Below are positions 57,418 to 62,485 of a stretch of 64,000 bases of DNA, piece by piece (within the stretch, counting starts at the first letter, position 1; each line of letters starts with the position of its first letter). Both the position numbers and the translations under genes were made by a program. Source of the DNA: Halorientalis regularis (GTDB lineage Archaea; Halobacteriota; Halobacteria; Halobacteriales; Haloarculaceae); NCBI RefSeq assembly GCF_023698535.1, contig NZ_JALJCL010000004.1, positions 1-64,000 of the forward strand. Direction: 5' to 3'. The notes under the pieces were generated by a model. That model did not search any database and was not told where the DNA came from. It worked only from the letters and a program-made list of their open reading frames with translations.

Positions 57418-57801
57418 ATGGACGAGATCGCACTCGCCGTTCCGGAACCCATTCTGGACTCGCTGCCCGACGACGACGGTGCGGCCGAACAGGACATGAA
57501 ACGGGCCGTCGAGGGCTGGGAACGACGGATCAACCGCGCGATCGCGGACGAATCCGAGGAGGAAGCCGCCGGCTACGTCCTCGACGCCATCGAACTCTTC
57601 GAGGAGCGGATGGACACCTACGACGCGTTCGTGCCGGAGTTGCGGGCCTGGGGCCAGTCGCCGATCTACGCCATCTGCTGGCGCAACCTGATGGCCGACC
57701 TGATCGGCCAGCTGTACGAACACGAGGAGCTGGCCGACCGACTGGATCGGGAGCGCAACCAGCGCGTCGTCGAGGACGGCATCCGCCTGCGGGACCTCTG
57801 A
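57418..57801 (+). CDS. Haloarchaeal conserved hypothetical protein
   Basis: A 127-residue, all-helical acidic protein: ADESEEEAAGYVLDAIELFEERMD, AWGQSPIYAICWRNLMADLIGQLYEHEELADRLDRER. No known domain is recognised. It precedes the SAMP-like gene by 41 bp in the same direction, so may belong to that cluster. Confidence 0.65.
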   Translation: MDEIALAVPEPILDSLPDDDGAAEQDMKRAVEGWERRINRAIADESEEEAAGYVLDAIELFEERMDTYDAFVPELRAWGQSPIYAICWRNLMADLIGQLYEHEELADRLDRERNQRVVEDGIRLRDL

Positions 57802-57842
57802 AGCGGCGGGGATTTATGCCGGCTCCGAACTTGCGTGGCAGT

Positions 57843-58139
57843 ATGCACCTCGAATGCCGGTTCTTCGCCACCTATCGGGCCATCGTCGGGCAGAAGTCCC
57901 TCGACCGGGAGTTCCCCGATGGGGCGACGGTCGCCGAAGTCCTCTCGACGCTGGAGGCCGAGTATCCCGACCTCGAAGCGCAGTTGCTCGACGAGGACGG
58001 GACCATCCGCCCACAGCTGTCGGTCCTCAAGAACGGCCGGGACGTGACCCACATGGACGGCGGGGCGACGGGACTCGAAGACGGCGACTCCCTGTCGGTG
58101 TTCCCGCCGGTCGCGGGCGGCGCTCGTGGGGTGAGCTGA
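57843..58139 (+). CDS. Ubiquitin-like small modifier (SAMP/MoaD family)
   Basis: A 98-residue beta-grasp protein: LECRFFATYRAIVGQKSLDREFPDGATVAEVLSTLEAEYPDLEAQL, SVLKNGRDVTHMDGGATGLEDGDSLSVFPPVAGG. By eye it resembles SAMP3-type proteins. SAMP and MoaD proteins must end in Gly-Gly to be adenylated, but here ARGVS follows the GG, so a protease would have to trim it before conjugation or sulfur transfer. It overlaps the next gene by one base (TGATG). Roles may be protein conjugation or molybdopterin sulfur transfer. Confidence 0.87.
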   Translation: MHLECRFFATYRAIVGQKSLDREFPDGATVAEVLSTLEAEYPDLEAQLLDEDGTIRPQLSVLKNGRDVTHMDGGATGLEDGDSLSVFPPVAGGARGVS

Positions 58140-58414
58140 TGCGCCGCGAAGAGGCATTCAGGGGGATCTCGAAACGACTGGCGGTCCATTACCTGGAGAA
58201 CCTGGGCGGCGAACTCGTCGCCGGCGAGCGCGAGGACAACGCGGAGGCCGACGTCGCCGGCGAGGACTGGACGGCCACGCTGTCGGCCGAGAAAGTCTCG
58301 GTCGCCGGCTCGATGACGCTGACGGAGGTGTCGGTCGTCTTCGAGGGTGGCGAGGACACCGTCGCGGAACTCGTCGAGAAGTTCACCCAGAAAGCGATGC
58401 GAGCGGGTGGCTGA
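58139..58414 (+). CDS. Small MoaD-associated protein ending in Gly-Gly
   Basis: A 91-residue alpha/beta protein: RGISKRLAVHYLENLGGELVAGE, WTATLSAEKVSVAGSMTLTEVSVVFEGGEDTVAELVEKFTQKAMRAGG. It resembles the small C-terminal domain that accompanies MoaD in some archaea (DUF1952-like), though this is not checked. It ends in Gly-Gly. One-base overlaps on both sides couple it to the SAMP-like gene and to the next gene. Confidence 0.62.
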   Translation: MRREEAFRGISKRLAVHYLENLGGELVAGEREDNAEADVAGEDWTATLSAEKVSVAGSMTLTEVSVVFEGGEDTVAELVEKFTQKAMRAGG

Positions 58415-58770
58415 TGGCCGGCGACCCCATCGAGGGGGAAGTGCTGATCCTCGTGGCGGCGAAAGCGAGCGTCGGGCCCCAGCGGCTCCCGGACCTGGTC
58501 GACCGCGTGGCCGCGGACCTGGGCCCCCAGCGCGAGACCTACGCCCGCGAGTACGAGCGCGCCTACGAGACCGACGGCCGCACCGCCTTCTTCGTCGAGG
58601 ACGGTCACTGGCAGGAAATTCGGGACCGCCTCGACCTCGGCGAACGCGAGGTCGACGCCGTGCGGCGGGCCCACCACGAACAGTTGACTCGTGACGGTCG
58701 GCGACTGGGCCGGATCGAGGAGTTCGAGATGGCCCTGGAGATCAGGGAGTGCGTGGTGCTGGGCGTCTAG
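58414..58770 (+). CDS. Haloarchaeal conserved hypothetical protein
   Basis: A 118-residue soluble protein: GEVLILVAAKASVGPQRLPDLVDRVAADLG, TDGRTAFFVEDGHWQEIRDRLDL, EVDAVRRAHHEQL. No known family. It is translationally coupled to the SAMP/MoaD cluster and overlaps the epoxide-hydrolase-like gene tail to tail by 4 nt. Confidence 0.68.
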   Translation: MAGDPIEGEVLILVAAKASVGPQRLPDLVDRVAADLGPQRETYAREYERAYETDGRTAFFVEDGHWQEIRDRLDLGEREVDAVRRAHHEQLTRDGRRLGRIEEFEMALEIRECVVLGV

Positions 58771-60538: not shown

Positions 60539-62485
60539 TTAGTCGTCACCGGGCGCGGCCGCGCCGGAGTCACCCATGGAGACGCCGGTGCCGGGGCCCA
60601 CGTCGATGCCGAGTTCGTCGAGTTTCTCGTCGGGGACGACGCCGTCGACCCAGTCGCGGACCTCGTAGTACTCGGCTTTGAGCTGGTCGAGTTCCGCGAG
60701 TTCGCCCTCGCTCGCGCCCTGTGCGGGGATGGCGTTCTCGTTGCCTTCGACGAAGCGGTCTGGCAGGTCGTCGTCGTCGCCGTCGAAGCCGGCGAGGTTG
60801 TTGTAGTACCGTTCCAGGTTGTAGATGCGTTCACCGGCGGTCATCAGGTCCTCCTCGCTCACGTCGAGGCCGGTCATCCCGCCGTACTGCAGGACGTACT
60901 CCTCGATGCCCTCCGCGAAGGCGTTGAACTTGCAGATGTCGAAGGAGTCGGAGATGGCGTGCATGTCTTGGAAGGTGGCACAGAGTTCGCCCTTCCCCTC
61001 GGGGTCGTAGGGATCGACCTTCTGGGGGACGCCCAGGATCTCGGCGGCGGGGGTGTAGCCGCGCAGGTGGCACGCGCCGCGGTTCGAGGTGGCGTAGCCG
61101 ATGGCCATGCCCTTCATACAGCGGGGGTCGTAGGCGGCCATCGACTGGCCCTTGACGGCCAGGGAGTTCTCGTGGGCGTCGAACTCCTCGGCCAGGTGGT
61201 CGGGGCCTTCGGCCATGTGGTCGGCGAGGTCGGTCTCCCGGTGGCCGATCCGCTCGATGAGGTCGATCATCTCCTCGCTGTCGCCCCAGTCGATGGAGTC
61301 CTCGAAGTCGAGTTTCCCCTCCTCGATCATCTCCATCGTCATCGCGATGGTGTTGCCCGTGTCGATTGTGTCCATCCCGAGGTCGTTACACAGGTCGAGC
61401 ATGACGGCGATGCGGTCGCGGTCGTGGTGGCCCGAGTTCGGCCCGAGCGCCCAGGCGGACTCGTACTCGTAGGACTCCATCCGGACGTTCATCTCCTCGC
61501 CCTTGTGCATCGCCTGGACTTCGACTTCCTTCTTGCAGGCGACCGGGCAGGAGTGACAGGTCGGCTCGTCGACGAGGATGTTCTCCCGGACGTTCTCCCC
61601 GGAGACTTTTTCCGAGTCGATGATGCGCTCGCCGTCACCCTCGGCGTCGGACATCGACTTCGTCGAGGAGTACTTCCCGTTCTTGGTCGGGAGGCCGTCC
61701 ATCTCCTCGGTGACGTTCATCAGGACGTTCGTGCCGTACAGCGAGAGCCCGCCCTCGTTGGGTGCGGTCACGTCGGACTCCTGGATGACCTGCATGGCCT
61801 GCTTGTGGCCTTTCTTGAACGTCTCCGGGTCCTCGGGCTGGGGCATCTTCGTCGAGGAGCGGACGACGACGGCTTTCAGGTTCTTCGAACCCATCACACA
61901 GCCGGTGCCGCCACGGCCCGAGGCGCGGTCGTCCTCGTTGATGATGCAGGCGTACTTGACCTCGTTCTCGCCGGCCTGCCCGATGGCCATCACCGAGAGG
62001 TTCTTGCCGTAGGCACCCTCGACCTCTTCCTCCAGCTGGTCGCGTGTCTCGTGGACGCCCCTGCCCCAGAGATGAGAGGCGTCCCGGAGTTCGACCTCGC
62101 CGTCCTCGACGACGGCGTAGACCGGCTCGTCCGCTTTCCCCTCGAACAGCAGGCCGTCGAAGCCCGCCCACTTGAGCCGTGCGCCCGACCAGCCGCCGTG
62201 GTGGGAGTCGGTGACCGTGCCCGTCAGCGGTGACTTCGTGCAGATGGCGATCCGACCGCTCATCGTGGTCTGGGTGCCCGTGAGCGGTCCGTTCATGAAC
62301 GCCAGCAGGTTGTCCTCGCCCAGGGGGTCGACCTCGGGCCCCTGATCGAAGACGTACTTGACGCCGAGGCCGCGCGCACCGATGTACTTCTCGGCGTCTT
62401 CGTCGTCGATGCCCTCGTACTGTACGTCGCCCGCGCTCAAATCGACGCGAGCGACGGTGTCGTGGAATCCTCCGAGGTCTGTCAT
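60539..62485 (-). CDS. Aldehyde ferredoxin oxidoreductase family protein
   Basis: A 648-residue tungsten/molybdopterin enzyme: YIGARGLGVKYVFD, GPLTGT, GRIAICTKSPLTGTVTDSHHGGW (pterin binding), GQAGENEVKYACIINEDDRASGRGGTGCVMGSKNLKAV and Fe-S Cys pair CHSCPVAC with a later DICKF Cys. It oxidises an aldehyde or similar substrate with ferredoxin as acceptor; the specificity is unknown. Its Asp-rich C-terminal tail is typical of haloarchaea. A SAMP/MoaD-type gene that could serve its cofactor lies 2.4 kb away. Confidence 0.92.
   Translation of the reverse strand: MTDLGGFHDTVARVDLSAGDVQYEGIDDEDAEKYIGARGLGVKYVFDQGPEVDPLGEDNLLAFMNGPLTGTQTTMSGRIAICTKSPLTGTVTDSHHGGWSGARLKWAGFDGLLFEGKADEPVYAVVEDGEVELRDASHLWGRGVHETRDQLEEEVEGAYGKNLSVMAIGQAGENEVKYACIINEDDRASGRGGTGCVMGSKNLKAVVVRSSTKMPQPEDPETFKKGHKQAMQVIQESDVTAPNEGGLSLYGTNVLMNVTEEMDGLPTKNGKYSSTKSMSDAEGDGERIIDSEKVSGENVRENILVDEPTCHSCPVACKKEVEVQAMHKGEEMNVRMESYEYESAWALGPNSGHHDRDRIAVMLDLCNDLGMDTIDTGNTIAMTMEMIEEGKLDFEDSIDWGDSEEMIDLIERIGHRETDLADHMAEGPDHLAEEFDAHENSLAVKGQSMAAYDPRCMKGMAIGYATSNRGACHLRGYTPAAEILGVPQKVDPYDPEGKGELCATFQDMHAISDSFDICKFNAFAEGIEEYVLQYGGMTGLDVSEEDLMTAGERIYNLERYYNNLAGFDGDDDDLPDRFVEGNENAIPAQGASEGELAELDQLKAEYYEVRDWVDGVVPDEKLDELGIDVGPGTGVSMGDSGAAAPGDD

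Follow-up and report, generated by a model that had tools for sequence, protein, structure and literature searches.

The SAMP3-partner gene pair of haloarchaea: variable extensions and fusions after the Gly-Gly motif, and co-occurrence with an aldehyde:ferredoxin oxidoreductase-type gene

Among the archaeal ubiquitin-like proteins (Ubls), SAMP3 of H. volcanii is a known protein modifier that has been found isopeptide-linked to other proteins, including MoaE (PMC4443979, PMC7305310). In the portion of PMC4443979 drawn on here, it is said not to be directly involved in molybdopterin synthesis and to be unable to substitute for SAMP1 in DMSO respiration; HVO_2177 is annotated as SAMP3 (PMC4500146). 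The desampylase HvJAMM1 cuts a linear SAMP1-MoaE fusion precisely after the last Gly, both in vitro and in vivo (PMC4443979), and CsJAMM of Caldiarchaeum cuts SAMP precursors (PMC6043591), so that precursor SAMPs as such are not new. A further haloarchaeal family, arCOG06308, was described by Makarova and Koonin in 2010 as TBP-like, GG-ended and unique to Halobacteria; its genomic neighbours are a MoaD-like Ubl and a pair of small proteins, and an Ubl-like activity was suggested for it (PMC2948915). As regards tungsten enzymes, a 2006 study took MoaD genes located strictly next to AOR genes to be tungsten-cofactor genes (PMC1779556). A MoaD-type Ubl of Thermococcus takes part in the synthesis of a tungsten enzyme's cofactor, as supported by deletions, and another Ubl adjoins AOR (PMC11323500).

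The window analyzed here, a stretch of 64,000 nucleotides from the 4.03-Mb genome (45 contigs) of Halorientalis regularis, a close relative of H. persicus and H. pallida, contains a SAMP3-type gene at 57843..58139 (+). The frame starts at 57816 in the list of open reading frames; the similarity to relatives starts at 57843. The product has 98 residues, including a five-residue tail, and its C-terminal end is SVFPPVAGGARGVS, also given as FPPVAGGARGVS. The codons of the FPPVAGG motif occupy 58101..58121 (+), with the two Gly codons at 58116-58121, and are followed by those of the tail ARGVS (58122..58136, +), which varies between species. The stop codon TGA (58137-58139) has one base in common with the ATG of the next gene (58139..58414, +), which encodes a partner protein of 91 residues, hereafter P2, with the C-terminal end KAMRAGG; its terminal RAGG codons lie at 58400..58411 (+). 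Translation and the genomes of the genus thus confirm the gene arrangement given in a preliminary description of this DNA, namely FPPVAGG followed by ARGVS and a one-base overlap with a 91-residue gene ending in RAGG.

The pair is flanked by two small conserved proteins: P4 (127 residues, 57418..57801, +) and P3 (118 residues, 58414..58770, +), the start of which overlaps the P2 stop. Of the 80 named loci, 59 gave a tblastn homolog of P4, and P3 has a homolog in all 80. For neither of these two window proteins did Pfam or NCBIfam yield a match above the cut-off. For P3, analyzed with 39 members, the best Pfam E-value was 0.054, i.e. at chance level, and the PDB gave no match at E 1. The stretch beyond its last invariant Arg is variable, at 7 to 41 residues in these 39 members, in contrast to the end of P2.

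The SAMP3-type protein matches ThiS in Pfam (E 1.5e-16, 61.1 bits, cut-off 22.5) and both SAMP1 (103.9 bits, cut-off 60) and moaD_arch (74.3 bits, cut-off 49.5) in NCBIfam. The GG corresponds to residues 92-93, and the matches to the ThiS and SAMP1 models both stop at residue 93, the second Gly, after which the encoded ARGVS follows. The top match among the sequences in the PDB is 2m19 (E 4.6e-31), the title of which names H. volcanii HVO 2177, with the SAMP1 structures at E 9.6e-11 or weaker. On the strength of these similarities we assign the window protein as a SAMP3 orthologue, nearer to HVO_2177 than to SAMP1. Elsewhere in this genome there are a separate SAMP1-like gene (L003) with the end FPPVSGG and a third SAMP-like paralogue (L002:1501-1788, G000:C11:111549), in which residues beyond the GG are present too (VAGGQR). 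A SAMP3 gene with P2 directly downstream also occurs in two Haloferax species (L152, L153). In Haloarcula pellucida, an opposite-strand ORF (L107:3092-3532, -) lies between SAMP3 and P2; judged by eye, its product looks like a small ubiquitin-like protein with the end FIFCC in place of GG, and PMC2948915 mentions that Halobacteria have a beta-grasp family with a CC end.

The SAMP3-P2 pair is present in all eight genomes of the genus. Seven of them have in-frame tails of 2-6 residues after the GG (ARGVS, ASGVS, VI, VV, ASEVR, AEGVDR and SELRSG), and in the eighth (G003) SAMP and P2 form one ORF with no in-frame ATG, GTG or TTG between them. No frameshift is needed to account for these seven tails and the fusion, and the differing sequences of the in-frame tails rule out a frameshift or an assembly error as the origin of the tail. 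The range of arrangements is broader in the named set, comprising the best 80 of 182 haloarchaeal loci, for which the scan pattern demanded RAGG: 11 loci are fused, 44 have adjacent genes (20 tailed, 24 ending exactly at the GG), in 22 the genes are more widely separated (2 tailed, 20 exact), and in 3 the stretch lacks a SAMP. Each of the 77 loci that have a SAMP shows FPPVAGG, and the linkers of the 11 fused loci contain no ATG, GTG or TTG. In a sample of 392 genomes from across the phylum, for which the search did not demand RAGG, 60 genomes have P2. The stretch examined around P2 includes SAMP at 54 of these 60 loci, where it is fused in 8, tailed in 23 and exact in 23. The motif FPP[VI]AGG is kept in all 54, as FPPVAGG in 53 and FPPIAGG in one. 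An ATG or GTG does occur in the linker of four of the eight fused phylum-sample loci and of two loci in the family set considered below, so that separate translation is possible at those loci. In these counts, locus L074 (G125), with a partial SAMP match, is treated as not extended, and the linker DNA of L032 and L038, which were mis-anchored, is left out.

A 90-row tree of SAMP and P2, built by a quick method, requires at least seven changes of the fused state, of which starred branches force three, and 16 changes between the extended and the exact state. Since tails and linkers vary and the GG is retained in 54 of 54 loci, the sequence past the GG is labile and the GG itself is not. The preliminary description had envisaged orthologues that keep both the tail and the pair, or else orthologues that end at the GG, with the tail of the window explained by a frameshift. 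The pair is indeed kept in 8 of 8 genus genomes, and 23 of 54 orthologues do end at the GG, but the tails are not frameshifts. Descriptions of SAMP3-DUF1952 fusions were not found in the part of the open-access literature that was searched.

A possible cause of the tail is suggested by the window sequence itself: a putative Shine-Dalgarno-like site for P2, GGTGA (58130..58134, +), lies within the tail codons. In this genus SAMP3 is translated with a few residues past the GG, perhaps because the ribosome-binding site of P2 has been built into the end of the frame, and in other lineages the frames have merged into a SAMP-GG-linker-P2 polypeptide. It could be argued that the tail is then no more than a neutral by-product of translational coupling, created when readthrough of the SAMP3 stop supplied the Shine-Dalgarno site of P2. 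Among loci with adjacent genes, 8 of 19 tailed ones have a site of at least four bases located wholly past the GG codons, compared with 1 of 22 exact ones, but these are raw counts and the comparison is confounded, as exact loci have little room after the GG. Moreover, the genes lie apart in 5 of 23 tailed loci, and coupling would account for the origin of the tail, not for the recovery of a free GG. We consider it a possible but less probable explanation of the tail; coupling and trimming of the tail are compatible and can both hold.

The nearby molybdopterin/tungsten enzyme gene noted in the preliminary description is present at 60539..62485 (-), convergent with SAMP3-P2-P3, and it encodes a protein of the aldehyde:ferredoxin oxidoreductase type, a tungstopterin enzyme family (NCBIfam PRK09849, E 1.5e-65, 222 bits, under the cut-off of 868). 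It co-occurs with SAMP3 and P2, and the tungsten-enzyme link is the best supported part of the earlier interpretation. A downstream convergent oxidoreductase gene lies within 4 kb of P2 in 38 of the 80 named loci (best 80 of 182), and in three more a match is found upstream or on both sides within the same distance. In 146 genomes of the family, P2 was found in 74, SAMP3 (E 1e-17) in 75, the oxidoreductase (E 1e-100) in 76 and P3 in 73. When the comparison is confined to the 96 good genomes (at least 90% complete, at most 5% contaminated), an identical group of 54 has SAMP3, P2 and the oxidoreductase, and the other 42 lack all three (Fisher p 3e-28, kinship ignored). Presence and absence are concordant also inside the five variable genera (g2, g3, g7, g11 and g13), and the genomes of the full set that disagree (G104, G108, G127, G130 and G139) are all less than 90% complete. 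P3 accompanies P2 in 50 of the 54 good genomes, being absent from four g2 genomes and present in two without P2.

In the phylum sample the preset limit of E 1e-100 was met by matches in 224 of 392 genomes, 164 of them without P2, and is thus too loose. At 71% identity or more, a cut that was set after seeing the result, the oxidoreductase is found in 60 genomes, and these are the 60 P2 genomes of the 392, 51 of them outside the family; the 60-with-60 match therefore holds for close orthologues only. The other 164 matches, among those listed, have at most 49% identity, and 20 listed genomes of the window's order that lack P2, the same 20 in both listings, gave no match to the oxidoreductase. 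The two phylum draws were equated by their size and tallies (392 genomes, 320 of them good, 136 genera), and three candidates per genome were scored for the oxidoreductase and 13 for P2, so that a gene may occasionally have been missed. If a distance of up to 12 kb is counted as near, the oxidoreductase is near P2 in 55 of 73 genomes of the family and in 33 of 51 other genomes, and not near in the remaining 18 and 18, respectively; as the genes are distant in some genomes, their co-occurrence holds beyond linkage. Taken with the phylum-wide pattern, the family-wide one rules out coincidence as the reason for the proximity of the oxidoreductase, and we regard it as very probable that the SAMP3-P2 pair is functionally tied to this enzyme. 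The use of tungsten by the window oxidoreductase is presumed from its family. A second oxidoreductase copy, 87% identical to that of the window, occurs on another contig of the fused-gene genus genome (G003:C4:31837-33783).

The nature of the tie can be understood in more than one way. The pair could constitute a conjugation system, the main target of which is the oxidoreductase or its supply, rather than a sulfur carrier; the known isopeptide linkage of SAMP3 to proteins would agree with this, and the co-occurrence is as much to be expected of a target as of a client. On the other hand, MoaD genes beside AOR genes have been read as belonging to tungsten cofactor synthesis (PMC1779556), and the Thermococcus Ubl deletions support a role with the cofactor (PMC11323500). 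We find conjugation as the main function rather unlikely, and give an even chance to sulfur carriage by SAMP3 with P2 as its partner.

If SAMP3 is to carry sulfur or to be conjugated, the tail would have to be removed, and the preliminary description had proposed a protease-trimmed precursor. The genome of the window has a desampylase gene of the HvJAMM1 family (G000:C2:55101-55460; NCBIfam NF041370, 160.2 bits, cut-off 130). A strong JAMM match, defined as 64 bits or more, is found in 76 of the 78 searchable named P2 genomes (best 80 of 182), including all 31 with a tailed or fused SAMP3; the two without (L107, L125) both have an exact SAMP3 that lies apart. In the family, 19 of 19 tailed-or-fused genomes have a strong JAMM vs 28 of 55 other P2 genomes. 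Of the 27 (among 74) family P2 genomes without one, 21 SAMP3 genes were read and all are exact, the remaining six comprising five loci that were not fetched and one stretch without SAMP. The association is significant by genome but not by genus (6/11 vs 0/3, p 0.15 one-sided, 0.21 two-sided), and with so few genera behind it, it may reflect ancestry; JAMM is thus not retained as a discriminating factor. The trimmed-precursor idea keeps the indirect support of the GG preserved before variable tails, of the desampylase gene and of the 19 of 19 family genomes, and loses that of an association at the genus level. In genera g2, g3 and g13, which have P2 without a strong JAMM, SAMP3 genes were read for 20 of 26 genomes and are all exact. 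In two related genomes, G144 and G145, a tailed SAMP3 gene is the direct neighbour of the JAMM gene in divergent orientation, with a gap of 28 bp in G145 (L227).

It is conceivable that the tail is never removed, and that SAMP3 acts as a domain bound non-covalently to P2, the GG being kept for structural reasons or through recent descent. The Thermus protein 1v8c was crystallized with both domains in one chain, and a strong JAMM is missing from some SAMP3-P2 genomes. This is, however, hard to reconcile with FPP[VI]AGG retained in 54 of 54 loci while the length and sequence of what follows vary, with the desampylase-type JAMM in every tailed-or-fused genome of the family and of the searched named set, and with the cutting of the SAMP1 fusion after its GG by HvJAMM1 (PMC4443979), and we consider it unlikely. 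That SAMP3 is often made as a precursor and trimmed after the GG by JAMM seems probable to us.

For P2, the structural model (pLDDT 94.6) predicts a beta-alpha-beta4-alpha topology, which we take to be TBP-like, with the last helix extending to residue 89 and the GG following it. The closest structure is the C-terminal part of Thermus 1v8c (residues 87-165; Z 12.2, rmsd 1.4 over 79 residues), the next best having Z 8.9; Foldseek alone also places 1v8c first (E 0.009), with none at E 0.001. Fold matches of middling strength to KA1, START and other structures were not regarded as evidence of relationship. The C-terminal half of 1v8c belongs to Pfam DUF1952 (E 6.3e-43). The P2 sequence itself gave no match to PF09189 (DUF1952) at E 1; in the P2 family alignment, 18 of 50 members match it at E 1, the best at 2.4e-5, and DUF1952 matches at E 0.001 were found in 4 of 391 class genomes, two of them above the cut-off. 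In the PDB, P2 alone had no sequence match and the P2 profile had four hits, none better than E 0.06. When a profile was built from six haloarchaeal fusion proteins, it aligned to 1v8c across both domains (E 1e-17); the model of the fused protein has a pLDDT of 90.6 by domain and a pTM of 0.51, and the arrangement of the domains in it is not confident. As judged from the model, P2 has the fold of a DUF1952 domain. This predicted fold rules out P2 as a second beta-grasp protein. P2 does not match MoaE either: the one Pfam match of the window P2 at E 1 is to another family, and MoaE is not among the 25 listed of the 27 families matched by 50 members. Beyond Thermus, a plasmid search for DUF1952 gave MoaD-domain matches only, among 20 of 23 records listed, and no mention of DUF1952 was found in the open-access literature searched.

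The preliminary description had also suggested that the conjugating role might have moved from SAMP3 to the neighbour. This is not borne out by the predicted fold of P2, though its terminal GG is strictly kept: the exact end R[AS]GG is found in 60 of 60 phylum-sample orthologues, which is the unbiased figure, the 80 of 80 with RAGG in the named set being circular because the scan pattern demanded it. Three extra places with P2 paralogues were found in the phylum sample, two with the end RAPG and one broken by a stop. P2 paralogues without a SAMP in the stretch (L077, L078, L079, L080, L317, L318) end in RAPG or RASG, so that the terminal GG seems to be special to the SAMP3-linked P2. Within the phylum sample, P2 was found in the window's order only (60 of 392 genomes). 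The idea that the RAGG of P2 is itself activated by an E1 enzyme, P2 being a second, non-beta-grasp carrier or modifier, could draw on the last residues, a dense conserved stretch, on the GG with which 1v8c ends as well, and on the Ubl-like role proposed in 2010 for the matching family (PMC2948915). Nevertheless, the predicted last helix leaves no beta-grasp tail, the paralogues with RAPG or RASG do without the GG, and SAMP3 retains its own GG at every locus read; we find such a role for P2 very doubtful. Equally doubtful is the most elaborate scheme, a two-protein sulfur relay for one tungsten oxidoreductase, in which SAMP3 and GG-ended P2 would derive from a cleavable ubiquitin-like polyprotein matured by JAMM and the GG of P2 would be charged in turn.

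We propose, with about even confidence, that SAMP3 and its dedicated partner P2 form a module serving one oxidoreductase, in which SAMP3 is often a JAMM-trimmed precursor. This proposal builds on the sequences and their fusions, the invariant GG, the fold predicted for the partner, the co-occurrence and the presence of a desampylase gene, all of which were observed here; from these we infer the cutting at the GG, the sulfur chemistry, the role of P2 and the use of tungsten. The JAMM desampylase would cut after the Gly-Gly, and the free Gly of SAMP3 would be activated by an E1 enzyme and would then transfer sulfur as a thiocarboxylate. P2 could be the sulfur acceptor or a docking partner, as MoaE is for MoaD, and the transfer would take place during maturation of the tungsten cofactor or of the oxidoreductase, with the conjugation of SAMP3 to lysines as a second use.

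If the relay reading holds, the conjugation of SAMP3 to proteins would be secondary to its role with the cofactor. The distribution that SAMP3 has in common with the oxidoreductase and P2 makes its purpose directly testable. The tails and fusions would turn some haloarchaeal SAMP3 genes into precursor genes, comparable to the ubiquitin fusions of eukaryotes, and a precursor SAMP3 would give the desampylase a role in maturation beside that in deconjugation.

Several described systems resemble the one presented here. SAMP3 of H. volcanii (HVO_2177, 2m19) belongs to the same family, but its chain ends in VAGG, whereas the window protein has five more residues; in the portions of the literature considered, H. 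volcanii SAMP3 is described without a P2 partner or a link to the oxidoreductase. The SAMP precursors of Caldiarchaeum are also processed by JAMM, in another group of organisms, and the part of PMC6043591 used here does not describe a fusion to a partner. In SAMP1-MoaE (PMC4443979) and in MoaD-MoaE of Deinococcus (PMC8832034), a MoaD-type domain is fused via its GG to a partner and released by JAMM, but the partner is MoaE, whereas that of SAMP3 is a DUF1952-type domain. P2 fits the description of arCOG06308 in PMC2948915 by its topology and terminal GG, by its restriction to one order and by having a SAMP neighbour. On the other hand, the present analysis connects P2 with the DUF1952 domain of Thermus, with SAMP3 in fused proteins and with a single oxidoreductase, which goes beyond what the relevant text of that paper describes. 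Another counterpart is the Thermus thermophilus "MoaD related protein" 1v8c, in which, as in SAMP3-P2, a ThiS domain is followed by a DUF1952 domain, with FPPVAGG at the junction and a terminal GG. The organism labelled Tth in the table of the 2006 study of MoaD genes beside AOR genes is presumably the same species. In Thermus, the two domains form a single chain, whereas the haloarchaeal SAMP3 and P2 are encoded apart, as coupled genes or as a fusion.
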